This document shows positions 17,990-44,000 of a DNA stretch of 64,000 nt, one piece after another. Location of the stretch: contig NC_090288.1 of the NCBI RefSeq assembly GCF_037392515.1, forward strand, positions 15,233,969 to 15,297,968, in the 5' to 3' direction. This DNA comes from Haliotis asinina. Its lineage: Eukaryota; Mollusca; Gastropoda; Lepetellida; Haliotidae. Numbering within the stretch: position 1 is the first letter of the stretch; each line of letters opens with the position of its first letter. The notes under the pieces were generated by a model. It had not been told where the DNA came from. It searched no databases and worked only from the letters and a program-made list of their open reading frames with translations. The position numbers and the translations under genes were made by a program.

Positions 17990-18770
17990 ATTCTTTTGTG
18001 AGTAGATTTCTAGGTGAACTTATGCTTCCACTTGCGAGTTGACGCGTAATCTATGACCACATGTTTCATAATACTATTTAAGTAGACCCGCGTGGGTAAA
18101 AAATTGTCAGAGCTACGACTTTGACGTTCATACGTGACAAAGACGTTGGCATTGTGCCACTGTTATTTTTTAATATTGAAGCGCGAGGGTCACTGCGTAA
18201 TATACTTGTACACCCTGCAGGCTTCCTCATAACTGTGAGGAGTATTTGAGGAGTATTTCTGAGAAGAATGTATGTGATTCCAACGGACAGGTAAACGCTA
18301 GAGGATTGGTCAGCTTGATCAGATAATATGTTGAAAGTGACAGAGACACCCATGGGAAAACAATTATTAGCTTTAACTCGTGAACGCTTGGATTCTGCAC
18401 GGCACCCCATTCCTAGGTAATGGTTGTTTTTGAGTAGCTTGGGTTCAAAAGGACTGTGTCGCAATAACACCAGTATGTATTTACTCTAATTCTACTTCAT
18501 ATCATTTTTGAGCATACTGCAGTTGGTTTCTTCAAGATATCTGTTGACACATGGATATCGATTTCTGCATTTTTAAGACCACTTGGTTGTTCAGTCGGTA
18601 AACTACCTCACCTACATTGTTCTTGTTTGTTTTGTGTACACAAGGAGAAGGGATATGTTGCTTGTATCCGTGAACCGTTACATGCTGGGTTTTATTTTAC
18701 CGTAATGTATCATCAAAGTTGTATGGAACAACAAGGCTGGTTGGTTAACAAGCCATATTGAGGTGGCGGG
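17990..18770. other. Intergenic, no gene recognised
   Basis: A 130-codon minus-strand frame lies at 18078-18470 but has no recognisable domain, no splice context and an unremarkable composition. I do not call it a gene. Confidence 0.4.
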
Positions 18771-18774
18771 TCAC

Positions 18775-19790: not shown

Positions 19791-19792
19791 GC

Positions 19793-19925
19793 AGGGGTGT
19801 TGGGGTAGTCTGGTGGTTAAAGCGATCAGCTGTCACGCGATAGACCAGTGTGCGATTCCCCACTTGGATACAATGTATGCAGCCTATGTCTGGGCTTGTT
19901 GCTTAGAAATGGCGTAAAACTAAAC
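19793..19925 (+). repeat. SINE family 2 copy just upstream of gene A coding start
   Basis: A-box-like GGGGTAGTCTGGTGGTTAAAG and B-box-like GTGCGATTCCCCACTTGG are present, and the copy ends GGCGTAAAACTAAAC. The ACTC tail has been replaced by TTTCTTTCCACAG, which looks like a splice acceptor directly 5' of the start codon of gene A. Confidence 0.8.
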
Positions 19926-19946: not shown

Positions 19947-22900
19947 ATGTCCTCTAGCGGGCAACGTCCGACTCTAAGAACTGCAGTCTTGCAGTTCGTG
20001 TGTCCTTCACGGCTGCTTGGAACTGGATGCTTCGGGAATGTGTACAAGGCAGGTCACAACAAATCACAGGTAAGACTTTGCACACGTAATGAAACTTTTT
20101 GTAGTATTGTAAGTCTGACACACATCTTGAACTAACTGGAATACTGTTCACAGCGAAAGGTAAACGAACCTCGATAATTAGAACCTCTGGGTCATGTGTG
20201 GTTAGCTATGTTCCTCTAAAAATAGCATATCTGTTCGGGTGTAAAATTTACTGCACAGAACACACCGAGGGATTACGAGTATCCTAGTACGCTTGGTTCA
20301 AATGCATAACAGGGCGTTAGGGTAGCCTAGTGATTAAAGCATTTGGTCGTCACACCAAAGATCCAGGTTCGATTCCATTTCTGTATTTCACCAGTACATG
20401 TACTCTGGCGTTGAATGATTAACCAATTTCCACTTTCGCCTTGGCAGTATGCAGTGAAGGTGTCGCCACTGTCTAACCTCTCGGATACAAATGCCCAATG
20501 CATTCTGAAAGAAGCGGTCACTCTGTCACAGTTTGCACACATGCACGTCGTCAAATACCTTGACTGCTGGGAGGAAAGAGACCGGCAGGAGGCGTGGCAA
20601 CTGTACCTCGTCATGGAGTACTGTCAAGGTCGTGACCTCCGGCACTTTCTGGAAAACACTCTCCAGCATCCGCCGGAAGAGGAAGTGTTCGGGTGTTGGC
20701 TAGCTCAGATAGCTTCCGGTTTAGAGGTCAGTGGAGAAACTGGATACATAATTCACATTCAAGCAATTAAACTGTCACCAAATTTCTATCGAATATTTAA
20801 CTCATTTCAAACAGGAACGCGTAGACTGAAGACGTGAAGGAAGCATGCTTGTGTTTCTAGTGTTGGTCTGGGCAGGTGATGTGAAAAAATAATGGTACTG
20901 TGACTTGTACAATGTAGGTTCGGTCGTTAGGTATAGAGAACATCTTCTGTTGCAGCATATTCACAGCCATAACGTCATACACAGGAACCTGAAGACGTCC
21001 AACATCCTCGTGTGGTGCTACAGCGAACAAGTAGTTTTGAAGATCGGAGGCTTTGGATTGTCAAAGTAACCAGTGTTAAAACATGTCATCCCCAAAGAGC
21101 CACCAATTCCATAAACATGTTCAGTTCTCCCTGTCATCATCGCAGATGTCATCAATGTTGTAAATGCTCAAAGCCTGTCCTCCACAACGAAACTGAGAAA
21201 ATCATAAAATCAGTACCATTTGACGAGATTTTAAACACAACTCACTGATGAAATATTATTTAAAGTGGCTTTAAACACCACTCATTCACACACTCACTCA
21301 CTCACAAATCAAGAAACAATACCAAGATGAATTCCAACATAAAGCCCAACTATTTTGGCCCATGGAATGTAACTCTCCTCAGCGAATCTCGGTGCCTTCG
21401 GAGACTCAACCCTCTCGCCATGTTGATCACATCACGTCCACTTATAAACCAAATACTGTTTGAAGTTTAAAACAACGTTGGAATTCCAGGAAGCTAATGA
21501 GTATGGGTTTACGTCGCTTTTTTGCACAATTTTCTCATGTGGGGTATTTAACCCGGGACTTTGGCGTGACGAGCGTTAACCATTAGGCTACCCCAACGTC
21601 CCTACACAATGTAATGAATGTTCACACTTGTAACTGAATGTTTAACATTGAACTACAACGTTCGGTAGTTGAACTCCAGATGACTTCAGTCTACACTCTC
21701 ATTACCATTAAGCATGCGTAATTTTAAGGATTTATTTCCTTCTTTCTCTCAGGGGTCTGAAACATTTCAACGATGTGGCGAGGTCAATAGTTGGAACAGC
21801 CAACTTCATGAGTCCAGAACTGGTTGTAGGCAAGGAATATGACAGAAAGGTATATCACCGTCATTAAAAATAAAGCCGATAGTGATTCTTCAGTTCTCAT
21901 ACTTTAGATCAGTGGCAGGTTTTATGACGAAGGTATTGTTTTGCACCAGTGGTATCAATATTCACCCAGAATCACACCGGGGACGCCCAAATTAGGTGAA
22001 CACGACGTGCAGAAGAGAACACGGCCCTTAGTCGAAACGAACGAAAGGTCTGGCCACGGTTTAGCTATAGCTGCCAAACCACTTGTTTTAATAGCATTTG
22101 TTTCGCACACTTGTACCATGGCGGTTATTCGGATAAAAGATAACTGCATTATGAAGGAATGTTGTCAAGTGAACACTGGACTTAAGACATGTGTCATTTC
22201 TCGGATTTTTGTTTGTATATATTCCAGACAGACATTTGGAGTTTTGGATGTACAGCCTTTGAAATAGCAACACTGAGGTCACCAAAACCAAATCTGGTAA
22301 GTGTGACATTTTCTATATGACCAGGCAGACCAGAAGAATTGTTGAGCCGATGTTAATTATTGGATTGTCTGCTCTAAGTGCGGTGTTAAGCAACAAGGAA
22401 ATGGTATATCTTAACCGTTTGTTATACATGACAGATTGTAATTGTTTGAGTAACAACTTAGCATACACCATCAGTGGATATCATCCATATCTGGAACTTA
22501 AACGACCTTTTGAATCGAATGAAATATTACCTTTGCAAATAATGCAATGTATACATCGTACATGAGCAAACCTTCAGCGTTCTTCTCCATGCATAACGAA
22601 TCTAAAATTTGTGTAATGCTTGTGACACCTTCATGCATACTGGCTTGTCACTGGTGATGATTCTGTTTATGAATTGCAGGCCTCCTATCTCGAGACTTAT
22701 GTCAAATACAGTTCTTTCTTCAAGGACTTAATCAGGAGGATGCTTATGATTGATGCTGACTGCCGTCCAGGTGCAAATATGATCCTCAAACTTCTCGTAG
22801 AGAGAGGTTACAGACCACATGATGGAATAACTCCTACCTCCTCAGTGTCGACAGTATCCTCAGAACCACCATCTAGTCTTCACCAAAACTGTGATATGAC

Positions 22901-25840
22901 CCCTGTTCTTGAGAGCAGAGGAAGGCACTGCATCAACTCATGTGCAAACACTACTACCAAACGAAGTGGCCAAGGTATTGATGTTGCATTGAATACACTT
23001 AAACATGTTAGACGAGCGGAACGTGACAAGAAGGTCAAAAGCAGAGATAGGAACGGCACCAATTCCTGTGAAGGCACCACTTCTGCTGAACTATCTAACC
23101 AAGGTATTGATGTTGCATTGAATACGCTTACACATGTTAGGCGAGCGGAACGTGACAAGAAGGTCAAAAGCAGGGATAGGAACGGCACCAATTCCTGTGA
23201 AGGCACAACTTCTGCTGAACTATCTAACCAAGGTGTTGATGTTGCATTGAATACGCTTACACATGTTAGGCGAGCGGAACGTGACAAGAAGGTCAAAAGC
23301 AGAGATAGGAACGGCACCAATTCCTGTGAAGGCACAACTTCTGCTGAACTATCTAACCAAGGTGTTGATGTTGCATTGAATACGCTTACACATGTTAGGC
23401 GAGCGGAACGTGACAAGAAGGTCAAAAGCAGAGATAGGAACGGCACGAGTTCCTGTGAAGGCACAACTTCTGCTGAACTATCTAACCAAGGTATTGATGT
23501 TGCATTGAATACGCTTACACATGTTAGGCGAGCGGAACGTGACAAGAAGGTCAAAAGCAGGGATAGGAACGGCACCAGTTCCTGTGAAGGCACAACTTCT
23601 GCCAAACCATCTAGTCATGATGTTGCTGTGAAAACGGATATACTGTCTAGACGAGCAAAGCACGAGCAGCAGATGAAAAAGACTGTAACCTTCGCTCCTT
23701 CAACATCACTTTCTTATTGTTCATCCGGCAGTGGTTATGAAACGGACATCGGTTCTTTCGGGATGTCTGGGAGTTTCACCTCATCGCCGGGAGGTCTCTT
23801 CAACACTTCGGAACACGGCAGACACTCCAACACGGAAATGAGCAGAGGCACCAGCAGGAACCCGGAAACTGAGATTCCCGAAAGTCCAACTCCATACGAG
23901 ACAGGAGGATGCAGCACCAACAGAAGTATAGAAACCGGAAGATGCGCAGACATCAGCAGTAACGCAGACATCATCAGTAACCATGGGGACAGATTGAACA
24001 ACACTGCTAGCTGTGGCAGTGGCTACGAGCCTGGTAATATAGCGTAAGAACTTACTGTTATGGTCATATTTTGTTTTCTCCTCAGTGCCGCACTTAGCTG
24101 CATGACGGCGATCTGTAATCAACACTATGAGTGTGACCACCCCATCGCTTTAGTCGTATCTTCCGACAACACACTCTGCTAAAAGACACTGAAGATAATA
24201 TCGTAATTTCGAAAGCATAACCAAACGATAATGATAATCTCGGTAATGATAATTTATCATACCACTCAAAAGTGGCACCATTAGCTTTCGTAGGATTTAC
24301 TTTCTAGGAATCCTTACACAAACCGGGTGTTTTGGGGGGCTCAGTGTTTCTAACTGTAAATGCTTTGAAATATATTCCTTATAAGAAATGGTGCTTATAT
24401 CAATCCAATTGTATGTGATTGTTTAAATATTTTATTTTCTAAAGACAACGACGCGGACCGCGACATGTGGATAAATGACCAAATTGCAACATTACAGCCG
24501 TAAGTATTCTACAGTGTCGACAGCGTACTCACAACAAGCATCGTGTCTTAAAGAACAAGCAACACGACCTATGTTCCCCATATAGATGTGTGGATAAATG
24601 AACAAATAGCTACAGTCGTGAGTATGACATATAACTGTGCATAATGCACACAGTAAAGACCCAAGAACGCCAGATAGAAAAGTTGCATCTATCATTTCAC
24701 TTCATAGTTTATTCAGAATATATGATGAAGACTATTTTTACAAAATAAGTGTCACTATATCTAAGGTTCTGATTCTAAGCTCTTTGATTTTTTTCAGGGA
24801 CGTCGCCCGCTCGATCGGACGGGAGGTGTTTGTTGCGCTGTACCCTACCTTAAACATCCAAGATGAAGCCTTGTTTACTGTGAGGAATTCCTTTTTTAAT
24901 GCAAATACAGTATTTAACTAAATGATTTGAAACTATCAAAATTATAACTTCATTATCTGAATTGATTCTAGTGAAATTGATCAAAGATAAAATGATATTT
25001 ACTGTTCCATTGGAATACAAATACATTATTTCACTAGTTGTTTTGACATTATCACTTATAACTTCATTATATGAATTGATAATAGTGACATTGATCAAAG
25101 ATAAAATTTATGTTTACTGTTAGGAACTGTTCCAGTTTTAACGCAAAAACATTATTCAATTATATGTTTGAAAACTATCAATTATGACTACTTTATGTAA
25201 ATTGATTATTGTGAAATTGATCAAAGGTGATGTGATGTTTACTGTAAGAAACTGTTCCATTTTTAACGCAGTTATATTATTTGAATGTAATGTTTTTGAA
25301 ACTACCAATTATAATGACAACATTATTTGAATTAATTATGATGAAATTGATCCAAGATTGAATGAGGTTTACTGTTAGGAAATCAAAGATTAAATCATGT
25401 TCATTGTCTGGAACTGTTCCATTTTTAATGCAAATACATTATTTACGACATGTTTTGAAACTTGAAACCAATTACAGCTACATTGTTTGAATTTATTGTG
25501 CTTCAAATTATCAGTTTCATTAACTGTAGGAATTTGTTTCCTTTCTGCTAGAAACAAATCACGTTGCGGCCTACAGCTTCAGTTTCAATATAATTTCAAT
25601 TACTATCTCATATAATCTTTGGGTATCACTTTTCTACTTACGTTTGGCAGTTATCTCCAGATATAAATAAACTGTATGAGACGGAATCCGAGATGGGTGC
25701 ACGTCCACGTGCACTTTTGTAGAAATTATTTTTTTTTTTATGCTAACTTAAAGTATCATGGTGTCATATTGGAAAGACAGAATATGTCATTCACTATTAA
25801 AAATAAAATGGGAAGAAACATGTGGTATTTCCATCATCAC

Positions 25841-25886
<46 letters not shown>

Positions 25887-26016
25887 TTTCTCTCTCACAC
25901 ACATACTCTCTCTCTCTCTCTCTCTCACCTTATCATAAACAAGCACACTCGCACACAGACTCATTTACATCCGATCTAATTCCATAAACACGTTCTCACA
26001 CCTACATATTCAGTGC

Positions 26017-26048
<32 letters not shown>

Positions 26049-26405
26049 CACTGGATGAGCAATCTACGAGAAGATTCTCCTAAAGAAGGCAGCCACTCTC
26101 CTCAGCGCCTTGCTCACAGGATGAACCTCTCCTCCACGAAACTGTCTTCCTCATCCTCATAGATCCAGTAGTCACTGTCGTCGTCTCCCTCTGTGTGTGT
26201 GTGTGTGCGCGCGTGCGTGTGTGACATGGCCTGCGTGGGTGCCGTAGGTCTCTTTTGTGATATCACTTACATGAACGATCCGTCTTGTCAACAGCTACAT
26301 CTCATGGACCAGTTGGAGGACGAGGATGTGTGTGAAAAGATCAAACGTCTGTGGCGATTAGAAAAGGAGAAACGAGAACGCGATGGTGAAAGACGATCTT
26401 CATAA
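19947..26405 (+). CDS. NEK-like pseudokinase, gene A, 759 aa, nine coding exons
   Basis: Exons: 19947-20069, 20448-20726, 20956-21065, 21753-21849, 22228-22296, 22680-24033, 24445-24499, 24798-24879, 26295-26405. All are GT-AG with matching phases; the sum is 2280 bases. Kinase domain, residues about 18-275: glycine loop LGTGCFGNVYK, Lys45 in YAVK, Glu63 in helix C, activation-segment GTANFMSPE, TDIWSFGCTAFE, and CRPG near the end. The catalytic loop is HRNLKTSN, with Asn145 for the catalytic Asp, and DFG is GFG (Gly166), so phosphotransfer is unlikely. Exon 5 lacks 13 residues that gene B has after ATL. Residues about 325-535 hold five 43-residue repeats, then KTVTF (560-564), a PP1-docking-like motif. 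The last 82 residues form a helical module shared with gene B. NEK resemblance is from family memory; the role is unknown. An acceptor at 19938 suggests an upstream untranslated exon. Confidence 0.85.
20308..20405 (+). repeat. SINE family 2 head fragment in intron 1 of gene A
   Basis: GGGCGTTAGGGTAGCCTAGTG, GATTAAAGC and GGTTCGATTCC mark the tRNA-like A and B boxes. The body stops soon after the B box, about 40 bases before exon 2. Confidence 0.75.
21491..21602 (-). repeat. SINE family 2 fragment in intron 3 of gene A
   Basis: Antisense copy from GAGTATGGGTTTACGTCGC to CCATTAGGCTACCCCAACG, with a diverged B-box complement (TTTAACCCGGGACTT). A short run of ACTC units near 21290-21303 may be the tail of another fragment. 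Confidence 0.7.
22974..23620 (+). repeat. 129-bp in-frame coding tandem repeat (five copies) in gene A exon 6
   Basis: Five copies of a 43-codon unit (GIDVALNTLTHVRRAERDKK, then VKSRDRNGT and SCEGTTSAELSNQ) lie head to tail. Copies 2-5 differ at only a few bases; copy 1 has a diverged N-terminal flank and the last unit ends in a divergent sixth start (DVAVKTDILSRRAK). The unit is rich in Arg, Lys, Asp and Ser and is probably a charged helix plus a disordered linker. High identity indicates recent expansion or homogenisation, and copy number may vary between individuals. Gene B has no such array. Confidence 0.95.
24880..25470. repeat. Diverged about 120-bp tandem repeats in intron 8 of gene A
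   Basis: Units contain TTTACTGT, AGGAACTGTTCC, TTTTTAATGCAAATACATTA, GAAACTATCAATTATAAC and GTGAAATTGATCAAAG. About five units are visible, with starts near 24874, 24998, 25112, 25236 and 25366. The first unit begins inside exon 8 and includes its real donor site, TTTACT|GTGAGG. Confidence 0.75.
25830..25928. repeat. (ATC)n followed by (TC)n microsatellite
   Basis: About 18 ATC/CAT units are followed by CT-rich repeats. The poly-histidine frame across it is a repeat artefact in intron 8 of gene A. Confidence 0.95.
26017..26049. repeat. (CACG)n microsatellite
   Basis: Eight or so CACG units in intron 8 of gene A, with a second GTGTGCGC-type run near 26191-26221 shortly before exon 9. Confidence 0.9.
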
Positions 26406-27164
26406 CCACAACAAGTTGCATTATCATGAAACAAGACGTGTTAGATGACTGCTTTCTGCAACGCTGCAAGGACTGGTTAATTTGCCGAAAAAAAAGAAGA
26501 AAATTAACTGATTAGTAACGAACTTTGCAACTTCCATTCAACCAACGCTCCTGCTATCTAATAACCCTCCATCCTCCGATAAAGACATATGGCAAAGGAC
26601 AAAGAGCATTTGCGTTGACATTGAAATTTGAATGTCCGAGAGCAAGCTGCTAGTGAACATACGTCGAGATCTCTCTGCATTTAAGTGTATTCCGGTTGTT
26701 CATATCATTATGAAAATCACTCGTTTAGCATCCATATGGTTGTAAGGAACATGTTAGTTTGAGACTTGATGGAACCAACAGTGCTTTGCAACTGTCTAAA
26801 TGATACAAATAACAACAGTAATTTCGAAATTCAAGATTTTTTGATATCTCAAAATATGCCGATGTCTACAAATTGATATTTATAGCAGAGTGTATGTGCA
26901 CAAATTGCACATCCTATTTGATCAAATACACAGCTCTCTAAAATATGAATTATATTGTTTTGTTTGACCAAAATATTGATATCTAGAACTGGTGAACACA
27001 GTCGCCAGCAGTCTCATAAGAAACCAACATCACGCCATCCACGATGGGTCGTCAACCCAGTAACCGTCATGTGACACACGTGTGCACAATGTCATATATT
27101 TCCAGTCGTAAATGTAGAAGTTAACAGGCAAAACATTCCTGTACATTATATTACGTATTTTTGA
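26406..27164. other. Region 3' of gene A, probable 3' UTR then intergenic
   Basis: No further coding exon is seen. A 3' untranslated region must begin at 26406, but no classic AATAAA is close, so its end cannot be placed. Confidence 0.4.
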
Positions 27165-27310
27165 GTGAGGAAGTATGGGTTTACGCCGATTTTAGCATTG
27201 CCTCAGCAGACAATAGGCTTCACGCTTCACTTGTACCCATGTGGTGCATCGAACCCGGATCTTCGCCTCGACGAACGAACGTTCGTCAACTAGGCTACCC
27301 CACCGCCCTG
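27165..27310 (-). repeat. SINE family 2 copy
   Basis: Antisense, from GAGTGAGGAAGTATGGGTTT through GGCTTCACGCTTCAC and ATCGAACCCGG (B-box complement) to AGGCTACCCCACCGCCC. It covers body and head, with a short GAGTGA tail remnant. Confidence 0.85.
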
Positions 27311-28151
27311 TATTTGTAGTGTGTGTACAATAGTGTAATCGTAATCCCCGGTGTGTTATGTACAGTATTTTACACCTGAACAGAATGATGGGCTTTGTTT
27401 AGGGGAACAAAGCTCAACAACACACGACCTGTTTTTTATTTTAATCGAGTAGTGGGTCAGTAGCTGTATATACGTGCGAGCGCGCATGGGGTGGCGGGAT
27501 CGGATATGGAGGGGGCGTGGGGCAGGGGGAGAGGTGTGTGTGTCGCCAGTTGCAAGAATGCTGACATTGTGTAGCCATTGTCAGGTAAGTGAAATCAAGG
27601 TTTGTATTAACGGCCCAAGTGATTTTGAGACGCCAACCTAATGGCACAGCTCAATACAAGAACATGTTGTCAGAAACGTGCAGCACGCAAATAAAGTTGT
27701 CAATATAATACAACAGACAAACAAGCTCCCAGACAAGTACAACGCACAAACACAAGTTACAAGATACCAGGCACGTGCAACGCACAAACACAGGCACACA
27801 CAAAAAATACATTTTCTCATTCGCGTACAACACAAACACAAATTGTCAGACACGGACAAAACACAACATATATGTGAACGCAATATCTTTTGCAGTTTGA
27901 CCCAGACATGACCCTGTGTTTATCACATACTTTATCATACCCTACAACTAGGATACAACAAATATGATGTCCTACAACTAGGATATATCTCGTACTGGGT
28001 ACTCAACGGTCAAATCTCTACATATGACATAGTAGGCAGTACGGGTGTTCAAATTTGAATATATACGGTATGGGCAACCGGCACTCAGCCAGACACTAGA
28101 TACACAGATCCACTCACAACACAGAAGTGAAGCCGATCGGGAGCTGTCTAC
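27311..28151. other. Intergenic, CA-rich
   Basis: The stretch 27670-27870 repeats CAACGCACAAACACA and related CA-rich strings. Frames on both strands here reflect this composition. No gene is supported. Confidence 0.45.
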
Positions 28152-28376
28152 ATGTGCAGAGAGGTGAATCGGGATTACCTTCCGCACAAATATACTGTGT
28201 TAAGAGTGGAAAATATATACTCCGATAATCCTATGCATAAATCATACTTTCTTTTGAAGGCACGGGAAAGTGAAAGCGAAAGTAAGGATCATTGGATAGT
28301 GAACATCAAGGACGTATCTCTAGTGATGTACACGTGTGTAAACACTGGACTGGCGGGCGATGCCAGTGATCGTTGG
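28152..28376 (+). other. Possible isolated exon, 75 codons, ending at a donor site
   Basis: A 75-codon frame starts MCREVNRDYLPHKY, contains FLLKARESESESKDHWIVNI, and ends ...ASDR at TG|GTAAGT, a strong donor. It lies 4.5 kb upstream of gene B. Joining it to the likely acceptor before gene B (CCATAG at about 32910) does not keep the frame open, so it is not obviously a gene B coding exon. It could be an untranslated leader exon, part of an unseen gene, or chance. Confidence 0.25.
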
Positions 28377-28379
28377 TAA

Positions 28380-29243
28380 GTGTAATGTACGTATAATGCA
28401 TATATATCATTTGTTTCATAACATCCCACTCAGCGTTAGACGGAGCACGGTGTTTTGGTGCACATATGAACGATAATGCTTGCCTAAAGCTTGTCCTATT
28501 CTAGTGCATGTATTGTATATTTCCGTTAAGATCCCCCAAATTTTGTTCGAAACCATCAAAATGCATAAGCACTTTATGTTCTGTTCAGTAGTGCCTATTT
28601 AGATATGACTCACCACATGTTTTTCTGTCCATATACGAGGAACGTTTCAGAGTGATTGTCTTGCCGACTGAAATATTTCTATCTCTTCTTTATTGTGGTA
28701 CTGGTTCGATACGCAAACGAGGACAAACGTCTGTACGCCTTGTGACACCCTCTAAACAAATACAAACGTGTTCGTCTTGTCACATGCTGTAAATTATGAA
28801 AGCTGTCTGTATGCCTCGTGACATGCTGTAAAGTTGGACAAATCTCTGTAGGCCTCGTGCCACATTGTCAACAAGGATAAGCATGTTTATCATGTCAGAA
28901 AGACGCCCAGGCGTTTGATTCATATTGACGTACCATACCATTTCGAATACTCCCTTTTTGTCAAACTCCATCCAAGTGAAATATTGATGAAATGAAAAAT
29001 AACTACTTCACAGACCGCTTGGTTAGACCGCCATACGAAATCAGTGACTGTTCTTGACAAAAATATACGAAACACAATTTCCCGCCGGAACGTATAACCA
29101 GTAGATATTGAGGATACTCTATTTTGTGTTACTCAGGATAAGGAAGACCGCTTGTGCCGATGGATGTTTTCAGGTTCAAGGAAGCTGAATGTTATTTGGC
29201 AATGTAGTTTATTGGTAAACAACGAAACGATGGCATTATGTTG
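28380..29243. other. Intergenic, no gene recognised
   Basis: Short diverged repeats of the phrase CTGTATGCCTCGTGACATGC occur near 28730-28860. No exon or element boundary is supported. Confidence 0.4.
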
Positions 29244-29488
29244 TTACCCGTGAAGATCCGGGTTAGAATATTGATCTTAAATAACCCAAGCTTGTCGTAA
29301 GAGGTGACTAAGGGGATCGGGTGGTTCGGCTTGCTGACTTGGTTGACACTTGTCATCGGTTTCCAATTGCGCAGATCGATGGTCATGGTGTCGATCTGTG
29401 GATTGTCTGGTCCAGACTCGATTATTTGCAGACCGCCGCCATATAGCTGGAATATTGCTTGGTGGGACGTAAAACTAAACTCACTCAC
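29244..29488 (+). repeat. SINE family 1 copy
   Basis: Runs from ACCCGTGAAGATCCGGG to GACGTAAAACTAAACTCACT. The CCATAAAAGGCG block near the 5' end is deleted relative to the copy at 7167-7437. Confidence 0.85.
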
Positions 29489-29489
29489 A

Positions 29490-31140
29490 TTGCGTTGCTT
29501 CTGTTATATAGATTTAGTCGCGATTAGGTCTCAGGAGCGTATTCTGTATACTGTAAAACTTAGCGTGGTAGTTACAGTACTCTTGCGCCGTTTGAGTCAA
29601 GTCCTGGCTATGTAGTATCTTCTAGAACAACTACAGACTTATCAGTCTGCCAAACATTGAACCGTAGTATATTTATTGTTTTATATGCAATGGCTAAATC
29701 TCAGTACAATCGTCAGTGGCTAAAGGGATTTATAAATCCAGCTAGGATCCGTGCAGGTAGCAAAGGTACTTATATCAACTTCCAACTTACTTATAACTGT
29801 GAAAATCTAGTTATTTTACTGCCCATCGATGGCAGGTTTCTATTCTTTATGTATTTAGCTTTAAGATTCAAATTCTCGTCTCGATATAGCTGAAATATTT
29901 CCGATGTGACGCTAATTTGCAACTCATTCACTCACTCACAGGCTTAATAGGTGTGGTAGAAATTCGAACTTTCTGCATTTAGATTAAGATAATACCAGCG
30001 ACTGTATAGAGATACTATTTCCATCCATGCCATCCGTCATCGGATTGTATGGCAAACTTAACGGAAACGATGATACTGAACACCTTTGCGCTCTGATATG
30101 TAGGTGAACCCATTCTTTCAACTTGGCAGTCGACACGCTGAAGTTTGGAGTTTTAATATGACATGCGACATTAATGTTCAATATTATCATTACAACTGTA
30201 ATAGTTTGTTAATCTAACTCTACACAACAAATCCCTGACATACTGTTAATGAGACTAATTGAGACTAATAGAATTTGCTGTTTTCAAGGCTTGCATTGGT
30301 TCCAAATTTTCGCCATTGCCATTGTTTACGGGGCTTTTAGGGATGTAACGACGATGTAACGACGATGTAACGGCTGTCGAAGTGGCTAAAATCATTAAAC
30401 CAATTTATTGGGTTAGTTTTCGCTGTCTTGGGTGATCCATGTTTTTTGCGTGGAATTGCGGAGGTAGCTGTTTTCGATGAGTCGTGGCATATAACGTTTG
30501 AAATGACGATTCGATTGTGACCTCTTATAGCTCATTTTGTAGAGAAATCATCTGGCTTTCGATCCGTAGACATCAATCTATGTGTATTTGTAACACCGTT
30601 TCTAAGCGGTAGACGCCCCTGTGGGGGCGAACTTTTAACATTTTACGGTAATAGAAATACGAGCACGCTATCGACGTTGACGCCAGAAGTCTATCTTTGT
30701 GACCTAATGTGACAACTGGCGCACAGGACAGTTGGCCCTGAAATTGTAAGTATTTCCACGAATAACCATGAATTAAATATCGACACCATTTTACTCCTGA
30801 AATATGACGAAAGTCTCCTCTCATAACGCCATTTGAACACCCCAACATGGCATTTTTAAATAGGCTTACTTATATCTCTAACCCTCACCTGATTTGCATG
30901 CATGAAATTCCACACAGTTGTAAAATCGATCAGTCGTTAAATCCATAAACCTGTTTGCCGGCGAAGAATGTCCCTTTTATAAAAGACAAACTGGCTGACA
31001 TATCTACGCTCTTATTACGGGGTATTTCAGCCTGAAGTAACACTCTGGTAGTTTATCTACCCGGAACGTTTCTTCAGGTAACAAAATACCAACACTTTTT
31101 CATGTGTTCCTCCCCTCCACCATATGCCAAAAATGCATGT
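29490..31140. other. Intergenic, no gene recognised
   Basis: Contains a small tandem repeat GATGTAACGAC (three units near 30343-30372). Frames are short and unsupported. Confidence 0.4.
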
Positions 31141-31147
31141 GCATGAC

Positions 31148-31605
31148 ATTAATGAATATTTTAAAAAACGATGTAAAAATGCTTTTTTTGGACTGATTTC
31201 TGAATTGTTTTTACGTATTGTTATAAAGTAAGTCCTTTGGTGCTAAGTTTGATCGAGTCGCCTAGCTTTGGAAACATTGTTTAACTTATGTTTTGCGGAA
31301 CGATCAAGCTACCGTGGCTTGACATGGATAAATATGGATATAATCCGCAACGTGAGTATTCCCTTTTGCTCTACAACTAAGGCTCACCTTCATAAAAAAC
31401 TATTATTTTGCCTTATTACGCCGTTTTGACCGCTTGTTGACCGGTATCGCATTTCTGTAAGACGGACCATACGTTAAACAATGTTTCCAAAGATAGGCGA
31501 CTCGGCAAAACGACTTACTTTATAACATTTCGTGAAAAAAAACAATGCACAAATCAGTAAAAACACATTTTTACATCGTTTTTTTTAAATATTTAAAAAT
31601 GCCAA
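31148..31605. repeat. Foldback repeat, arms of about 140 bp
   Basis: The left arm (31148-31295) reads ATATTTTAAAAAACGATG, GTTATAAAGTAAGTC, GAGTCGCCTAGC, then TTTGGAAACATTGTTTAAC. The right arm (31460-31605) is its reverse complement with scattered differences. The centre of about 165 bases is unique. There is no coding capacity, so this is a MITE-like foldback. Confidence 0.8.
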
Positions 31606-31609
31606 CTTT

Positions 31610-32947
31610 TTCGTTACTTCGTGGTAGTATTTCTTTATCTTGATTGATATTGAATCACGCTTGATGCACGGAAATTACCGATGTTTTGCGAATGCAAATC
31701 GATGGAAGGGAGATAACTCTAAATTTGTTTTCTTGTGTCGTCTGCAAAGTCTAGCGATGGCTATAGAAAACTTTCAAATGTAGTCCCTGTGGATATTAAG
31801 AAGGGGAATAACACGGCGGCGATGTTACAAGGACAATACCTGCGGAAAAATGATCAAGATGCAAGATTCGAATTGTTTGATTCACACAGGTTGGCTGAAG
31901 AGTACGATCCGATACTCATGCTTCGAACAATTCAAAATTAACACTGAGGTGTTCGGAAAGATGAAAACGTACGCGTTCACTGGTCCCATGTGACCAGTAA
32001 ACAAAATATAATGTCCCTTACAGGGATCAGGGATGTCGCATTCATGCTGTAGTTGGATTCAGCGTTTGTATAATGGTATTGTGCGAATGTTATATTGGAA
32101 ATGTAATTTCAGTTCGGCAAATCAAGTACGCGATTGCGCATGTACATTGTCAGTGTGTTAAAATCAGGTGTAACATGACGCTAGTAGGTAATCAGTTCTT
32201 GTCTGAACCCATCGAAGCGTCGTTAAGTGAGTAATGATGTTATGCTGTCTCAACGTCGATAGTCGACTATAAAAGAAAAGGTCGCCCGAATAAGGAAATA
32301 CTGAACAATGACCATTCAGTGAATATGTGTAAACACGAGAGTTGTCATCTAATGTTTTTTCGTTTATGAGGAGCAGTTAGTTACATTTGGGCGCATGTGT
32401 GTGTTTGTGCGTGCGCGCGCGCGTGCGTGTGTGTGTGTTAGATATATATAGATAGATAGATATAGATAGATAGTGTGTGTGTGGTTGTGCAGGTTGTTAA
32501 GAACAGAATACTTCATTGTATTATTCAGTGTACAATATGCGCTAACGCTTTAAAAGTATGTTCTGGAACACATTATTTTTAAGAATGTAAAACAATATAA
32601 AGCCTTTTTATAGTTTTGTATTTGCGTCGCCCAGAGAAAGCCCACCATACGTGAAATCTTCGAAAAAGGATAGCGTTTTATACTCACAAAATATCAGAAG
32701 TAATACAAACATGCTTTGTGTACACGCGACTGTTGCAATGTGTGATGTGTGGATGCTTCTGACTGAACGACACGGGTATAAATATATTTATGGCAGAGTT
32801 AGGTTATGAAATAAGAAACTATTTCATTTAATTCAGACCAAGTGATTTCTTGACCGATTCCATAACAAATTTTAATTACCTTCGTGATCAAGCACTTTGG
32901 TTTTCCATAGGAAATGAGGACCAAGAGTTCTTGTGGTAGCATCCAAG
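31610..32947. other. Region upstream of gene B; microsatellite at 32398-32482
   Basis: GTGC/GT and GATA repeats run at 32398-32482. CCATAG at about 32905-32910 could be an acceptor of a 5' untranslated intron of gene B. A 68-codon frame at 31735-31941 has no recognisable domain. No promoter element can be named with confidence. Confidence 0.4.
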
Positions 32948-33121
32948 ATGGCGTCTAAATCTCGCGAGAACTTACGAGAGCACGTGTTGAAACAGTTGCG
33001 GACCAGCAGTTCAGTTGGAAAGGGCAAGTTGGGGAATGTGTACAAAGTCAAAGGATTTAATGGCGAACAGGTATAAAGTGTACATTTACGTTCTCATAAC
33101 TTGGCGAAAAAGGCAAAAGAA

Positions 33122-33177
<56 letters not shown>

Positions 33178-36100
33178 TGTGATGAATATTGATTTGGCGA
33201 TCACCATTCATGACAACCCAATATAGCAGCATCATTTACACGAACGAATAAAAGTTTCGCAGAGATTTCTTATGGACATGGAAAGATGTTTGTCGCTGTT
33301 TTACCCACAAGGCATGTCATATTTGTAGGAGGATATGCAAAAATATATAGTTTTCAGACTGGACGAAGAGACAACCGGTGCATACAAACACACGGTTAAA
33401 AAGTTGTTCTTTGAAACAACTGCACTGTCCAGTCTCTCTCAAATAGAAGCCAGCCTATGTTAGACCAGAAATCCGAAGTCTTTCTCGAAATCAACTGAAT
33501 ATATTCACATGAATTTTAAGCAGAATGTTTCATGACCTAATAATGATAATAAAAGAACACTTGTAATGCGCACATATCCATGACTGACCGCAAGCTCACA
33601 GCGCATCGTGAAAACAAGCTTGAGAGAAGAAATAGGTTAAGTTGTGACCTGAAAAGGGTCAAGTCTACAGTATGTCAGGTATTGTGGCAGCCTGTTCCAT
33701 AGGATTGGTGCTGCAAAAGACTCGCACGTGTTAAACATGCAGCCAAGTAAAATTGCCGATGGACTTTCATCCATTTCTTTGAAATTTAATAAAAATCTGA
33801 TTAACAAAATATTGAAGATGATGAAATCTGATTGACAAAATATTGAAGATGCTGGTGGACACGAAAGCCCTCGTCATGTTTTCCAGTTTAATTCTGATAC
33901 TAACAGTGCAGGAAAACTATGCGTCTAACACTTTCAGTATTATACGGTTCGTCAGCGTAAATAATTATCTTGTCTGTTTGTCAGTTCGCCTTAAAAGTAT
34001 CTGGATACCTGGATGCCACGAGGAAGGAGGAGAAGTACCTCCTGGGTGAGGTGGATGCCCTGTCTCGGTTTCAGCACCCCCACATCGTCCAGTATATAGA
34101 CGGGTGGGACACACGTGACAGCCATGGCCAGCTTCGTGTCTATATCCTCACGGAGTACTGCTCGGGGGGTGATCTGAGAAGTTACCTGAACAATACTCTG
34201 GGTCGACCGCCACCGGAAGCTGACTTTGGCGCATGGCTGGCACAAATCGCTTCCGGTCTGGATGTAAGTTTGACATAGGCAGGACCCCGTTCACAATGCT
34301 GTCTTAGCGCTTCGACTTTCATAAGTATGTGTCCAAATGTGTATTTTATGACCACTAGGCGCTAAGGCAGTTGTGTACAACAGGGTCCCGGAATATTTAG
34401 TACTGCACTATCTATTTGATTTTATGATTCTCATGGTGAGGTAGTTAATAGTGAGGTTATAGGAATGGTCGCATCGGTGTTGCTACACTTCTAGACTGAT
34501 TGAATTGGGACCCGTGAAGGTCCGAGGTTGAATAGGCCTTCAGCAACCCATGCTTGCCATAAAAGACCACTGTGCTTGTCGTAAGAGGCGACTAATGGGA
34601 TTAGGTGGTCAGGCTCGCTGACTTGGTTGACACACGTCATCGGTTCCCAAATGCGCAGATCGATGCTCATGTTGTTGATAACTTGATTGTCTGGTCCAGA
34701 CTTGATTGTTTACAGACCGCCGCCATATATACATATGGAAATTAATTAAGCAACACCAAATTCAAAGACACATAAAAACTTAACAAAGTTTAACGAAGTA
34801 ATTTTGATGATTGATTATTCAATTTTGATGTATTGACATACAGCATGAGCTTTTCATGGGTTGATATGACGCGCGTGAAGCTTGCACAGCGCACGTGCAT
34901 TGCTTTAACCTCAACTTTCGAAAAATGCACTTTTTCCCTGGGGTGTTTACAAGCGCAGGTTGTCGATTGCATTCGGTTTTTCATTCATTTCAATGTCATG
35001 GCACGTAGGAAATTATCAGAGGCCACTCGTTGGCAAATAATCGGCATGAGGAATGCTGGTATGTCTCTAAGACAAATCGGGACTCAAATCGGACGACATC
35101 ATTCCATAATTTCAAAACTTTTGAAAAAATACCGGGCCACTAATGAAGTTAAAGACCTGCCTAGACCAGGAAGACCCAGGAAGACCACAGTCCGGGAGGA
35201 CAGAGCTTTACTGAGACTTGTACGGCGCAGGTCCTTCGACTCGAGCTCTCGGTTGAGACAGGAGTGGCTTCCAGGGAGACCCATCTCGAACAGGACTGTT
35301 CGGAATCGTCTGAAAGCTGCAGGATACCGGGCAAGGAGGCCAATCAAGCGACCCAGACTGTCTCCAGCCCATAAGGCAGCCCGACTGGCCTGGTGTAATG
35401 ACCGTTTGCACTGGAACATTGCCTCTTGGAGGAAGGTCCATTTCTCAGATGAGAGCCGGTTCTTGCTGCACATGGTGGACGGTCGTACTCGGGTCTGGAG
35501 GCAGAGGAACACAGCAATGGCTCCACGGAACATCCAGGAGACTGTGGCCTTTGGGGGAGGTTCCGTTATGGTATGGGGGTGCATTTCCATGAACTGCAAG
35601 TTGGATATCATTACCATCCGTGGCAACCTTAACGGTGTTCGTTACCAACAGGAGGTTCTTGACAAGGCTGTGGTACCTCATTTTGAGAACCATCCTCTGG
35701 CAACGAGACCCATATTTATGGACGACAATGCTAGACCTCACAGGGCGCATGCTGTAAATGATTTTTTGCGGCAAAATGCAATTGACAGAATTTCATGGCC
35801 TGCCATGAGCCCTGACCTCAACCCCATTGAACATTTGTGGGACTTTATTGGCCGTCGTGTGAGGCAGAGAGACCCACCAGTCCATAATCTCAACGAATTG
35901 ACGGCTGCCCTGCATGAGGAGTGGAACAGGATCCCCCAGAATCAGATCCGGAGACTCATCCAAGGAATGAGGAGGCGTCTGGAATCGGTGGTGCGTGCGC
36001 AGGGAGGACACACTAGATATTGATGAAAGTCGGTGTGCAGACTCTCAGATGACTGTTCTTTCTTTCCATGTGACATTTGTGTTAATACACCTGACAACAA

Positions 36101-38014
36101 CGTCTGTGGATGAATAGTAAATTGTGTCCATTTTTTCATGAATTTAAGACAGTTTTAAGAATTTGGATTTCGTTGCAATAAAGCAAAGTCTTGATACTTT
36201 TTCCCTTTAAGTTGTTTGTCAGAGATCGTCTGTTGAATAAAAAAGTGTCAAACTATATCAACCCGGCATATTTTGATTGTCAGAACACTTCAAAGTTGCT
36301 CCAATAGAAAAAATTGGGGTGTTGCTTGATTAATTTCCAGGTGTATAGTTGGAATATTGCTGAGAGCGGCGTAAAACTCAACTTACTCAACTGGTTTCTC
36401 TGACGCTTTTCAACAGTTGTTCAGTTACACCATAACGTGCTAGCTTAACCCGAAATTAGACAGGTGAAGCCTTTCACCACCTCTGAGAAACGAACGACCA
36501 CGGGCATTGTACTTACAAACCGGGAAAATAGATCAGTGAACACTTTTGAAACCATTCGCAGTGTGCCAAGTGAATGTTTGGCAAATAGTAATGATTACTG
36601 TTGATTCACGTTAGTGTTGAAATTTTGAAACCCTATCCCAATCTTCCTACAATATCTTTAGCGGTAATACCATTTGATGTTGTACTACACACCCGGGTGT
36701 AGTGAGTTCCCTTCCTTATTGTTTCCACACAGTCAGTACTAGAAATAAACCTGTTTTCCAAGTATTCCTTATCTTTTCATGAGAGTATATGACGCCCAAC
36801 ACTGTAAACATTGATCTGTAAAACAACAAATCATTTAGTTACAACTAAAAGCTGTCCGTAGGTTGTCGGTGTTTCCCATTTATCTCCCTCCATTAACTAT
36901 GTAAAATTATTAAAAGATTTCTCAGAGAGGACGCCTTAATCACAAGGCCCATCCCAACCCTTGATGTGTAAATATTATTAATCACACACACCATGTCAAA
37001 AATGGGGATGGGATGACCATTTTTACCTACCCTACCTTTTACATTCATTAGTAAATGAGGACGTCCAACATAAATCTATATGTATCAACTGAAAACTTTC
37101 CAAAGCAAAGCGATTCGACTGACATCATGAATAAATTTTAATCCTAGTGCCAAGTGATCTAAATTTTACAATTTCATAAAGTCGCTTGGTTATATGTAAT
37201 TAGTGAAAACCCCTTTATATTGTTTTGTTCCGCTTACAATAAGTGAATACATCGTTATATTGTTTTGTTCCACCTACAGTTCGTGAATATACCTTTATAT
37301 TGTTTTTCCTCCCTATCTATACCTTATCTTAACATCCCCCACTCTCTTGTTGGATGAAATTGGGGATGTGAAACATATAATAACAGGAATGAACTTGAAA
37401 CGATCCACGTCAAGGATAATTCATTGGAATATGTTACGCACTGTTATTTAACGTGTCAGTTATGAGTGAGTTCCCACTCACAAAGAGTCCATGCGTTCAA
37501 TACTCCTATAAATCACACACTCGGAACACCTCAGCGAGCGGAATACCGGAATACGATGAATACACAGTCTGACGCGAACAAAGAGTAGTAACGAAATACC
37601 CAGAGATTAAAACATACTGTAAAGCTCTATGTGGACCTGCACCACAATAAAGTGGTACCATATAAACATGATTTTGTGATTCTGTATTGTATGGTTTAAA
37701 ATGTGAGGTATGTATAATCCTTTATTCGTATCGACGACAAATTATTTGACAAGTACTCGTATTGTCATCCACTCAAGTAAAACTGTTTAAGCAACGCGAT
37801 CATGTGTACTTGGAAGCTCTTATTTGGTTGATAGAAGATATATCCATACTGTTGCGCAATAATATTCGCGTTCCCTCTCAACACCCTGCATTCCTTCGTA
37901 AAGGTGTCTTTTTCATCCCTTCGCCTAGCACCATAACCACCCCCCACCCCAACACACACACGTTTTATGCCAATTATAGGTATGGTATATGTAGTCGTTG
38001 TGTGCCTTTGGTTG

Positions 38015-38049
<35 letters not shown>

Positions 38050-41000
38050 CACACACACACACACACACACACATTGCAAAAAGTCTCTAAATGCTATCAA
38101 GTGCCACTAGAAAATGTGTCTGATATTAAAGGGTGTTATAGAGTTGAACCAAAGTGTTCCCTTATTTGTTTCCAGGTTTCTTCACAAGGTATGCGATACA
38201 GAGCTTGTGATAAACCTTGGAAAAAATAAGAGAACAGAATTTAATGGATAACAAGACGAAAGGTCGTCGTAATCTAAGATCACATGAATGACACTGGGGT
38301 GTATTACCCTGTATTCGATCACCAATGCCGAATCGACTGCGAGCTTTTACAACTGTCTGCCAAAACATTCCTTGTCAATGGCTGATTTCGGTGTCTCCCA
38401 TTACGACGTCCCAGTTATTCCCAAAGGTGCTCAATTGGGGACAGATCTTGAAGAGATGGAACTTGCTTTCGTCACCAAAGTTCACTCTTCGTGAGATTCG
38501 CTTCTGCCTGTGTGGCACAGTCCTGGTTCATCTAAGTCTGGCACGTCGGTGTTGGCACGTCAACGTCATGCCCTTGAAAGGTCGATCGGCACAGAGACCA
38601 TGACTGGTCACACTGTGTCTGCTGACTGAAAGTCCAGTACTGTTGGCGCTTGATGACGTCACAGTGACGTGTCGGTTCCTGAAACGCAACACATGTAATC
38701 ACCGGTCTTAATGTTGGGTAGAGATATATCACTCTTTGGCCTAACTGCAATACTGCCGTACAATAATACTTGTGACAAGCCTTCCGATGGTAGATTTGCA
38801 GCATCCCATGGTCCTAACCACATGCTTTTGTGCCTATTCCATCTGTAACATACCTATTGCTCTCTCCCTCTGCTCCGGTGGTGAACGAGGCATGTTCCCG
38901 ATTGTCAATCGACTAAAATGATGTAAGAGAATAAACCTAGTTAACTTTTATGCACTAATTTGATGCTGGTAACTTTGTGCAAAGTTTCCGTTTAATTCGT
39001 GTAGATTCGCTTTTTTCACAATATACGAAATGCAAGTGCAAATGTTCACTGGGAATCGACATGTTGTACTCGAGATTTATGCTTTTAGCTATTTTCAAAC
39101 AGACTCACAATTATTTTGACAATTTACAATCGTTTTTATTTTGGTGGCGTTTCTTTTGGTCGCCAGTTTATTACGAACTCTGTTACTAACTAGAAGTAGT
39201 AATTCCTGTGTATTCGTTAAAGCCATAATTGACGGTATCTAGTGTCAACTAGGAAGGAAAAGTGTGCTATTGTTGACTCAAACAAAGAGGATATATACTG
39301 ATTTAACATCCGTGTTTCAAAACGACCATGTTTTTTTTAAAAATATGTATCAGTGAAGCCATGTGAATACGGAAAAATTGTCTTGCCAAAAGAAATTAGT
39401 TCGATTTGTATATTTTGTAATTTCATATTTCAGTTTATACACTCTATGGGTATCCTGCATCGTAACGTGAAGACACCTAACATCATGGTTGATCACCTGG
39501 GCGGTTACGTGACGCTCAAGATTGGTGACTTTGGGATGTCAAAGTACGGGGCATGTTTGTTACAGTTGTTTTCTTATTACATGTAGTTGGAGTTTTTCAG
39601 TCGAGGCTCCAAATTACGATTCATATGTATTCTTATGAATTTTGAAATTAATATATTTCTTAATGACCAACTATGGGATCTGAGAAGGGACATTGTCGCG
39701 TTGTCGCATTGTCGCCCTCTCAAAAACAAGCAAAATGAGGCAAAAATGAACCAAAGCGCGACAACGCGACATTTCGCAGATCTCTGCCTCTGTTCAGCCA
39801 GCAGTGGATGGATACCAAGTAGAATGAGATATCACGTAACCACCCGACAAAGACAGTTTAGGTCGGCTTTGAACGTGATAATGGGAAAACGCCATACAAA
39901 TGGACTGTTATCATTGTGATATACTATCCCAAGAAATAAACGCATAGACGAGAAATCTGTTGAGAAATAGACTTTAGTGCATGAATTTTACATCAGTAAT
40001 GAGTGCGTGTGCTTTAGAAGAAGGTAATGTCTATAAAACAAATAATATACTTCTAGACAGCAAAGACGTTGATGACGACGTAGCACGACCCTGACGTCGG
40101 GTTTTCTGGTTCTCAAACGAATCTCTTTCAGCCTGTTCCGTACAGTTTGACCTGACATCCTCTGAAGCCCAGGTGCCCTGGCTGTTGTGCTCTCACCCGT
40201 GGGAGTACCATCATGCAACTGTAGTACCCGCATGTACCTATTTGAGCTGCAGTGGTAACTATAGGTCTGCCTGAAAAGGGGCGGTGATTTCTTATATCTG
40301 TTTGGCTGCAACGAGCTGCAAGTCATTATATCTTGCTCAGACTAACATTCAGACGCCTGGCAACAGAAGAGTTGTAACAATACAAATCGCCTATGCGTTT
40401 CTTTTGGATGGATGGTTTATTAGAAACAATGAAATAGCTTGGTAGTGTTGCGTACCCTTGAAGTGCCAGAAACCAAGTCTCCCTCCCTCCCTCCTCCTAC
40501 TCTGCGACGCTCCAATCCATTCCACACCATACCTCTCCTCTCCCCTCCTCCTCCTTCACTCCTCCGGCGCTCCGTTCTACTCCACTCCACCCTAGCCCAC
40601 TCCTCTCCGCTTCGCTCCACACCACTCCTCACTCCTCCGCAGCTGCACTCTCTCAAGGTTTGGGAAGCTTCGCAAATTAGCAAGGTATTTCAATACAATA
40701 ATGTTTTGTCAAGTCTGTTTTAGTTCTATTTGAATCCTGTCTTATTAACCCTGCATATGAGATAATTCACAATATATCTCATACTTTTCTCATATGGATA
40801 CTTGATCAAGCGATACTTATGTACTTGTATCGTTTCAAACATGCACCCACTGAATCATAATATTCTTCAGCAAAATGGACAGTTTGAATACGTCATTCCA
40901 TTAACCACGCACCCTTAACCCACACATTAACACGGCAACATGGATGTTCATTTCTCATCGTTCTGAGCTCGAATCACGGGTATCTCAGCTCTTAAAAAGC

Positions 41001-44000
41001 ATATAAAAATATTCATGCTTGTGATAGTTTTTGGATTCCGCCGTAACTAATAAAACGCGACACGCGACAATGCGACATTTTCACGAAATGTCGCGTTGTC
41101 GCATTGTCGCGTTTTGTTAAAATATTGATCACAGTATGGATTATAACATATTGACTAAAACGCGACACGCGAGAACGCGACATTTTGACGAAATGTCGCA
41201 TTGTCGCGCTTTGTTAAAAGTTTGACCAATGTATGTATTGTAGCTTAATGACTAAAACGCGACAATGCGACAACGTGACATTTCGTCAAAATGTCGCGTT
41301 GTCGCATTGTCGCATGTCGCGTTTTAGTTAGACTAACAACTAGTCTCTGCAATGAACATATTTTACTGAAAAACGTTCATAGGGGGAAAAAATAATATAA
41401 TGAAATGGAATCCTGAGACTTTCTTCATTTTCAGGACTTTTTATTGCCCCCAACATCACCCTACCCACCCGGCCCCCTACTCCCTCTCAGTGTGGTGTTT
41501 GGGCAGCTCCGGGGAAGTATCAACTGTAGCAAACACAGAGCTCAGGGTTAGCATCTCTTGAGACTAATGCTATGGCTGGAAAACTGGATGTATCCAAAAC
41601 TCCAACAAAGATATCAACTATATTTTTTTCTGTCAAATCAAAATATTCTGTCTGCATTATATACGACAGTTTGATTGAAATCACATGGTACAGGAGAAAA
41701 CTGTTTATTGGAAGTAGTAAGACAGAGCCATCCATGTCTTTGATTGAAATGTTTTACAAGTAACAGTTAACAGAAAAAAACACACACAGCGTGTAGTAAA
41801 TGTTCACGAGGCCACTCATACCGACAATACTTTGTGCCGTCTTGTAAAACCCTTTGAAAAGACTGCCATCGATTTGTACCAGTCCTGTGGAACTGAAGAA
41901 CTGAGATAAAAAAAACAGTCTGTTGTACAGATGCTGAAGCAAATATATCCAAGAAAGCCCATGCAAGTCTAGAAAATGTGGCAAGACTAGATTCCCTTAG
42001 CTTCTGAAAGTGAAGAAAGGTCTCAGTCTCCATTTTATTATGTTATTCTTATTTTGAAACTATGACCTTTTCCCAGTAAAATATGTTCATTTGAGAGAGT
42101 ACTTCTTAGTCTACCGAAGACATTGTGAGTTGAGGGACTCGCTCAGAATGTCAGTATTCCAGGAAGGAAGATCAGGAATCTTGATTAAAACCCGACACAT
42201 GTTGCCTCGCGGTGAGAGGACAGGGCAGGAGGTCTTAGCCAAGTGTGGGGCCATGGGGGAGCTGTGGGGGGAGCCTCCCCATGAATTTATACTAAACACC
42301 AGTGACAGCTGGAGATCAACTGGTAATTACTAGCCATATACTGGCTATGAATTCAGCAGATTGGTACAGACCCTGAAGCTATGAAAATCTAGACTTGCCA
42401 CATTTTCTAGACTTGATTGGGCTCTCTTGGATATGTATACTTCAGGGTCTGTATGACAGACTACGTTTTAGTTAATATCTTATAATTCACACTGTAGTCA
42501 ATATTTTAACAAAACGCGACGCGCGACAATGCGACATTTCATCAAAATCAGAACAATGATAAATGAACGTATATCTAGTCGTGACGTCCAGAGTGGTTGA
42601 GTGTCGTTGCTTAACGGAATGGTTCTATTCAGATTGACCCTTTTGCTGATTTTTTTTTTGATATAACAGCCGTTGGTTTGAAACGATACAAGTACATGTA
42701 TATCGCTGGATCTAGTATCCGTATGAAAAAAATATGAGGCATATTGTGAATCAGGCTGTGTGCAGGATTAATAATATAGGATTCAAACAGAAATGAAAAC
42801 GGGCATCACAATACATCATTGTAATGAAATACCGTGCTATTTATACCAATAAACCTTGGGTGAGTGGAGTGGAGCGGCGAGAGGAGTGAGGGAGGGAAAG
42901 CTGGTTTCTCGCACTGCAAGTGTACGCAACTCTACCAAGTGATGTCATTGTTTCTAATATCCTACTGCTAACAGTCCGTTCTTAAGGCGTTTTCCCATCA
43001 TCACGTTCAAAGTCGACCAAAACTATCATTGAGGTGACGGATGGTTAAGTGATATCTAATTCTACTTGGTGTCCATCCACTGCTGGCTGAACAGAGGCAG
43101 ATCTCTGACAAATTCATCAGCGTTGGACAGGACTTTACCACGAAACTGTCAGGAGAAACATTATGGAACATAGTGACCCATTCGAGGACATCACCTGATG
43201 AATTTGCCGATGTGGCTTGAATTTTAACAATATTTTAGTTTTTCACAACCTGTAATCACAACCTGTCATCGAAATCTCCAAAGTGATTAATGTGTATGGT
43301 GCTGGTATTCGAACGTATGGTAATAACTATCTGGTGTGACTATGAGACTAACTCTGCTCAGCAAATTGCCCCGCCTTGTGCGCCGTGATTACAATGAATA
43401 GTTGCGCTACTAATTCGATTTGCTGCAAGAACACACTTGACTGGCTAAATACATTTGCAATATGTAAAACAATAAAGAAAGATTTGCATTAAGTTCAAGA
43501 AGAGAAGGCCCATTGCCATTTCGAGCACTACTTCATTTTAAAAACCTTTGGAGGTAACGAAAGACCAGTGAAGTCTGGAATAGAGTATAACATTTTCTGC
43601 GCATGCGTAGATTAACTGACCCTCTACACATGCGCACCGGTAACAAAAAGGGCGACAACGCGACAATGCGACATACATTTTGTCGCATTGTCGCGTGTCG
43701 CGTGTCGCGTGTCGCGTGTCGCGTTTCAGTCAATTTGTTAAATGCATACTATGGTCAATATTTTAACAAAGCGCGAAGTGTCGCTATGTCGCGTGTCGCA
43801 CTTTGGAGGAACAGAGAAAATGTTATTCGAAACGCGACACGCGACATCGCGACAGTGCGACAAATAGGCGAATTGTCGCATTGTCGCGCTTTGGTTAATT
43901 TTGCCTCATTTTGCTTGTTTTTGAGAGGGCGACAACGCTACATCGCCACAATGTCCCTTCTCGGATTCCATAATGTCCCGTGTCGCACTTTGGAGGAACA

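Follow-up and report, generated by a model that had tools for sequence, protein, structure and literature searches.

A duplicated pair of NEK-derived genes with HRN in place of HRD in Haliotis asinina, probable pseudokinases degraded to different extents

The window analyzed here, a stretch of 64,000 nucleotides from Haliotis asinina (contig C9, positions 15,233,969-15,297,968; genome of 1.14 Gb in 159 contigs), carries two genes for NEK-like kinase domains, called gene A and gene B below, in which the catalytic-base Asp of the HRD motif is replaced by Asn. Both genes were rebuilt from splice sites, and their main features are as follows (window positions). A sequence-only reading had placed a duplicated pseudokinase pair at 20956..39543; the first of these positions opens exon 3 of A and the second closes exon 3 of B, which itself continues to 50026.

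19947..24047, plus strand: gene A, 6 exons, 681 amino acids (splicing and open frame)
19947-20069, 20448-20726, 20956-21065, 21753-21849, 22228-22296, 22680-24047 (stop included), plus strand: exons of gene A
Residues about 22-263 of gene A: NEK-like kinase domain (PF00069, E 7.8e-48), followed by a repeat tail
20956..21065, plus strand: exon 3 of gene A, catalytic loop HRNLKTSN, GFG replacing DFG
20986..20988, plus strand: Asn145 codon AAC of gene A, replacing the catalytic Asp
32948..50026, plus strand: gene B, 9 exons, 519 amino acids (splicing and open frame)
32948-33070, 33985-34263, 39434-39543, 44646-44742, 45233-45340, 45893-46451, 46812-46875, 48645-48726, 49889-50026, plus strand: exons of gene B
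Gene B protein: NEK-like kinase domain and tail (PF00069, E 1.5e-53, computed on a 458-residue version and not on the full 519-residue model)
39434..39543, plus strand: exon 3 of gene B, catalytic loop HRNVKTPN, DFG retained
39464..39466, plus strand: Asn145 codon AAC of gene B, replacing the catalytic Asp

In both spliced proteins HRN stands at residues 143-145 (H143-R144-N145), and Lys45, Glu63 and Asn150 are kept, as the sequence-only reading had stated. The Gly-rich loop and Lys147 are likewise retained, together with the Pro-Glu of what we take to be the APE motif (present as SPE), the presumed helix F Asp and the presumed late Arg. Gene A has, in addition, Gly in the place of the DFG Asp (GFG at residues 166-168). 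By sequence, a kinase domain counts as a pseudokinase if the VAIK Lys, the HRD Asp or the DFG Asp is missing; B has lost one of the three and A two, and both fall within the definition. The narrower pattern, in which the Gly-rich loop, the Lys, Asn150 and the DFG Asp are present and the base is lost, is found in B only, A being excluded by its GFG. Judged by these motifs, the pair is graded: B carries HRN only, and A is doubly degraded. The earlier picture of a uniform ERBB3-like pair fits B; for A it had overlooked both the GFG and the loss of 13 residues in exon 5 (see below). Two independent errors at this site are implausible, because the same codon is affected in two genes that are only 47% identical.

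The borders were GT-AG in all 13 introns (5/5 of A and 8/8 of B), and exons 1-4 of the two genes had equal lengths (123, 279, 110 and 97 bases) and equal phases. Neither a stop nor a frameshift was found in the coding frames. Over 273 aligned codons the residue was the same at 128, and the codon differences fell at 120 first, 89 second and 176 third positions, an average over both genes. Since the differences are concentrated at third positions, the comparison shows a pair that, on the codon evidence, has been held under constraint as protein through most of its history. Downstream of the shared exons, gene A has two features of its own:

22228..22296, plus strand: exon 5 of gene A, 69 bases versus 108 in B, 13 residues gone after DIWSFG
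22970..23613, plus strand: tail of gene A in the last coding exon, five in-frame units of 129 bases (43 amino acids each), 97% matching

The 13 missing residues belong to what we take to be the helix F to G region. The five-repeat tail looks like a recent expansion. No Pfam domain above the cut-off was found in the tail of A or in that of B (the corrected tail minus its last 8 residues); a Pfam MGS match in the tail of A was dismissed, as it reached 20 bits versus a cut-off of 24.1 and fell on the repeats. The likeness between the tail of B and a segment close to an upstream NEK pair (described below) was not significant, being reached by 7.8% of 5000 shuffles.

NEKs are kinases of the cell cycle and of cilia. 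The Pfam kinase domain PF00069 was found in both proteins, and the best match among solved structures was in both cases human NEK1 (kinase domain, 4apc; E 2.4e-42 for B and 2.5e-30 for A). For B, NEK1 (148.8 bits) was followed by NEK2 and NEK7, and the best non-NEK match was GCN2 (108.3 bits). A 20-kinase tree, made of 12 other kinases and 8 NEK rows that include the pair, showed A and B as sisters (100/100) within the NEK group (98/97); a 10-row tree with two outgroups agreed (NEK clade, 99/98; A and B, 100/100). Thus, the duplicated NEK-like pair of the earlier reading is borne out. The 20-kinase tree assigns the pair to the NEKs as a whole and to no one subfamily. The branch of A was longer than that of B (1.15 versus 0.66 in the 10-row tree and 0.73 versus 0.60 in the 20-kinase tree), and no inner branch of the NEK rows was longer than the stem of the pair (1.82 and 0.93, respectively); note that the end branch of human NEK2 was about as long as this stem. 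Because the HRD catalytic loop is replaced by HRN in both, A and B are, as far as their sequences tell, to be filed as NEK-derived and not as NEK enzymes.

For these trees, NEK rows from this genome were assembled manually out of open-frame pieces with some joints assumed (gene C2, described below, and the NEK8-like row were without exon 1), and outgroup rows were open frames cut around the catalytic loop, some of them incomplete. Left out were an incomplete NEK fragment on contig C14 (loop FRDLKTEN, Asp kept) and two of the 14 non-NEK loops found by motif search (L031 and L036). Roughly 220 kb upstream of the genes lies a tandem NEK-like pair, genes C1 and C2 (L039, L040 and L041; contig C9, 15.016-15.037 Mb), which are 86% identical and carry HRD and DLG; further NEK-like loci were found at 3.63 Mb of contig C9 and on contigs C7 and C14. 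A search for relatives of A and B in viral contigs gave one unconfirmed pattern match, as expected for an animal gene.

HRD was found in all six other NEK rows (C1, C2, two rows of the same genome that we take to be NEK4-like and NEK8-like, human NEK1 and human NEK2), and also in 18/18 other distinct catalytic loops readable by motif search among kinase loci of the same genome, a count that takes only loci matching the search motif. Compared with the other NEK rows, A and B are both longer by 3-5 residues between strands 4 and 5 and by three residues after the catalytic loop. Because A and B are monophyletic, use the same AAC codon and share these extra residues, and because the other NEKs have HRD, a single loss of the Asp before the duplication is, by parsimony, the simplest reading, and the earlier proposal of the same order is supported to that extent. 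A 24-base HRN pattern gave 219 matches across the genome versus 150 for the reversed control; the bare pattern is too noisy to serve as a census of HRN kinases. Among the matches listed, which run from contig C1 to part of contig C5, 12 places picked by their residues (451-501 bases each) were inspected, and none had surrounding kinase sequence.

Several other elements were noticed. In intron 2 of gene B there is a Tc1/mariner-type element (34737-36338, transposase frame to 36023) with an unbroken frame and matching inverted ends, apparently full-length by eye, which suggests a recent insertion. Short palindromic stretches of GTCGCATTGTCGCGTTTT-like units were seen by eye in intron 3 of gene B, at 41050-41330 and about 42500. 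Just upstream of gene A, minus-strand frames at 18713-19832 form a degenerate protein-like tandem repeat with units such as REIDCVHVYFVSFNRLH, probably a minisatellite. Two frames at 3332-4045 and 4623-4976 match QRICH1 and DUF3504, in the second of which DUF3504 and Phage_integrase are slightly under their cut-offs; the arrangement is presumably that of Crypton-type elements. An Rfam search across the window gave no match. On another contig of the genome (G000:C5:13406869-13423781), seven tandem kinase copies with near-equal scores each cover the Pkinase profile from end to end within a single open frame, with HRDLKLENV loops.

The reading that we prefer, at a probability of roughly 60%, is that A and B descend from a duplicated NEK gene that was already HRN, B being a nucleotide-binding, non-catalytic partner and A a further degraded binding domain. 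One NEK-family gene would have exchanged its catalytic-base Asp for Asn and then have been duplicated, the order being that given by parsimony. B is likely to bind nucleotide, because the Gly-rich loop, Lys45-Glu63, Asn150 and DFG are all retained; HER3- or PSKH2-like binding of ATP-Mg is the likeliest case, with poor or no phosphate transfer, and B would then serve through its conformation as a scaffold or an allosteric partner, perhaps for an active, HRD-bearing NEK. A would then have lost the DFG Asp and the 13 residues of exon 5 and now carries its tail of five 43-residue repeats; little or no binding of nucleotide-Mg is expected of it, and, if functional, it would be a pure binding domain. 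Both would probably take part in signaling with no phosphotransfer of their own, as other pseudokinases are known to do.

This proposal leans on described systems. Measured against the NEK family (NEK1/NEK4 type), to which the top structural match (4apc) and the NEK clade (98/97) tie them, A and B differ by HRN instead of HRD and by the extra residues, and A also by GFG and the shorter exon 5. Human PSKH2 is close to B in that it has HRNLKPEN with DFG kept and a close HRD relative, PSKH1, just as B stands beside HRD NEKs (PMC7586955); HRN is essentially all that sets it apart from an active kinase, and it is predicted to bind nucleotide still (PMC9988210). It is, however, of the CAMK family, and its HRN is described in primates only (PMC9988210), whereas here two paralogues share the loss. 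ERBB3/HER3 resembles B by an Asn at the catalytic-base site with Lys, Asn and the DFG Asp kept, binds ATP with one cation and acts as an allosteric activator of its partners (PMC4718504); it differs by its receptor tyrosine kinase family and by the absence of the helix C Glu, which B retains. For A, likenesses are found in trypanosome NRP1, which combines HRN with a lost DFG and acts in endocytosis (PMC9633767), and in EphA10, in which GFG replaces DFG and the HRD Asp is lost (PMC7586955); AAK1L1 of salivarian trypanosomes also has HRN (PMC10952953). NRP1 and AAK1L1 are NAK-family and not NEK proteins, with DFN instead of GFG in AAK1L1, and EphA10 is an Eph receptor with HRG instead of HRN. 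Among NEKs themselves, NEK7 is switched on via dimerization, and the same source mentions an inflammasome role that is independent of kinase activity (PMC5716973). Given such non-catalytic roles and the parallels with HER3, PSKH2 and NRP1, we favor the role of a non-catalytic partner.

Several points weigh against the preferred reading. The match of A to NEK1 is modest (109.1 bits versus 99.5 for PLK2), and NEK2 comes only after PLK2 and PLK3. The three-residue length after the loop also occurs in an outgroup kinase (L022, one of two outgroups) and is not unique to the pair. Residues 140-152 match at 7/13 between A and B, no better than the domain as a whole (128/273), so that continued selection on the loop itself does not follow. 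With the third-position bias being an average, A alone could be relaxing, and A could be on the route to decay. Finally, HRN is not proof of inactivity, as low activity is reported for HER3 and JAK2 (PMC7586955, PMC4718504, PMC9988210).

The last point leads to the possibility that B is an unusual active kinase, in which Asn145 with Lys147 and Asn150 gives slow phosphotransfer, and that only A is dead. The remaining catalytic residues of B are indeed intact, and for HER3 and JAK2 low activity of an HRN domain is reported (PMC7586955, PMC9988210); however, an Asp-to-Asn change usually abolishes catalysis (PMC7586955), and human PSKH2 was inactive in assay both as HRN and, under the conditions used, with the Asp put back, although naturally HRD versions were inactive too (PMC9988210). 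The long stem of the pair, though similar to the end branch of human NEK2, also speaks against retained activity, and we regard an active B as unlikely. It is quite unlikely that A and B each lost the Asp after the duplication, catalysis having already become dispensable through an earlier change. The GFG and the 13 lost residues of A do indicate that decay after the duplication occurs in this pair, but the replacement and its codon are the same in both genes, the extra residues near the loop are common to them, and the tree needs one event only.

That A, or both A and B, are functionless, decaying leftovers would account for the two losses of A beyond HRN, for its branch exceeding that of B in both trees and for a tail made of nearly identical units. 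Against this stand the unbroken frames and GT-AG borders of both genes, the third-position bias of their differences, averaged as it is, and the frame kept by all five repeats of A, and we find such decay very unlikely.

Adenosine-to-inosine editing of the first A of AAC (39464) would restore Asp in the gene B messenger, IAC being read as Asp, and make the kinase active where edited; U precedes the target A in gene B, and ADAR enzymes favor U before the edited A. Coleoid cephalopods provide documented cases of restorative recoding, but the gastropod Aplysia is named in the same source as without extensive recoding (PMC8382921), no long complement of exon 3 was found within A or B (at most 15 bases at 87% in B and 12 at 92% in A), the folds were not clearly stabler than shuffles (B, z -0.76, 16/100 as good; A, z +2.24, 100/100) and the GFG of A is beyond rescue by editing, so that this explanation is extremely improbable.

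Beyond a duplicated HRN gene with B as nucleotide-binding partner and A as degraded binding domain, one may imagine an animal-specific module, conserved in relatives, in which B would switch in response to nucleotide and A would be a partner blind to it, both acting jointly on active NEKs such as the upstream HRD pair; we consider this quite unlikely.

As for novelty, an animal NEK with HRN was not found in the literature searched, which is weak evidence of absence, since subscription journals were thinly covered. The earlier statement that such a pair is undescribed stands to that extent, but HRN pseudokinases and inactive Giardia Neks have already been described (PMC7586955, PMC9633767, PMC3218828). 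In Giardia, a protist expansion unlike A and B, 139 of the 195 Neks are without a key residue and predicted to be inactive; in most kinomes the share of kinases without one is about 10% (PMC3218828). With HRN in HER3 and PSKH2, HRN plus loss of DFG in NRP1 and the inactive Giardia Neks, the principle of HRN pseudokinases is already established, and A and B are therefore a fairly ordinary addition to a known kind. What the pair offers is a natural series in one genome and on one chromosome, from an HRD NEK through HRN with DFG (B) to HRN with GFG in a shortened domain (A), on which the steps from kinase to pseudokinase become testable among close relatives. In addition, the pair suggests that an animal, too, may have non-catalytic NEKs, which are numerous in Giardia.

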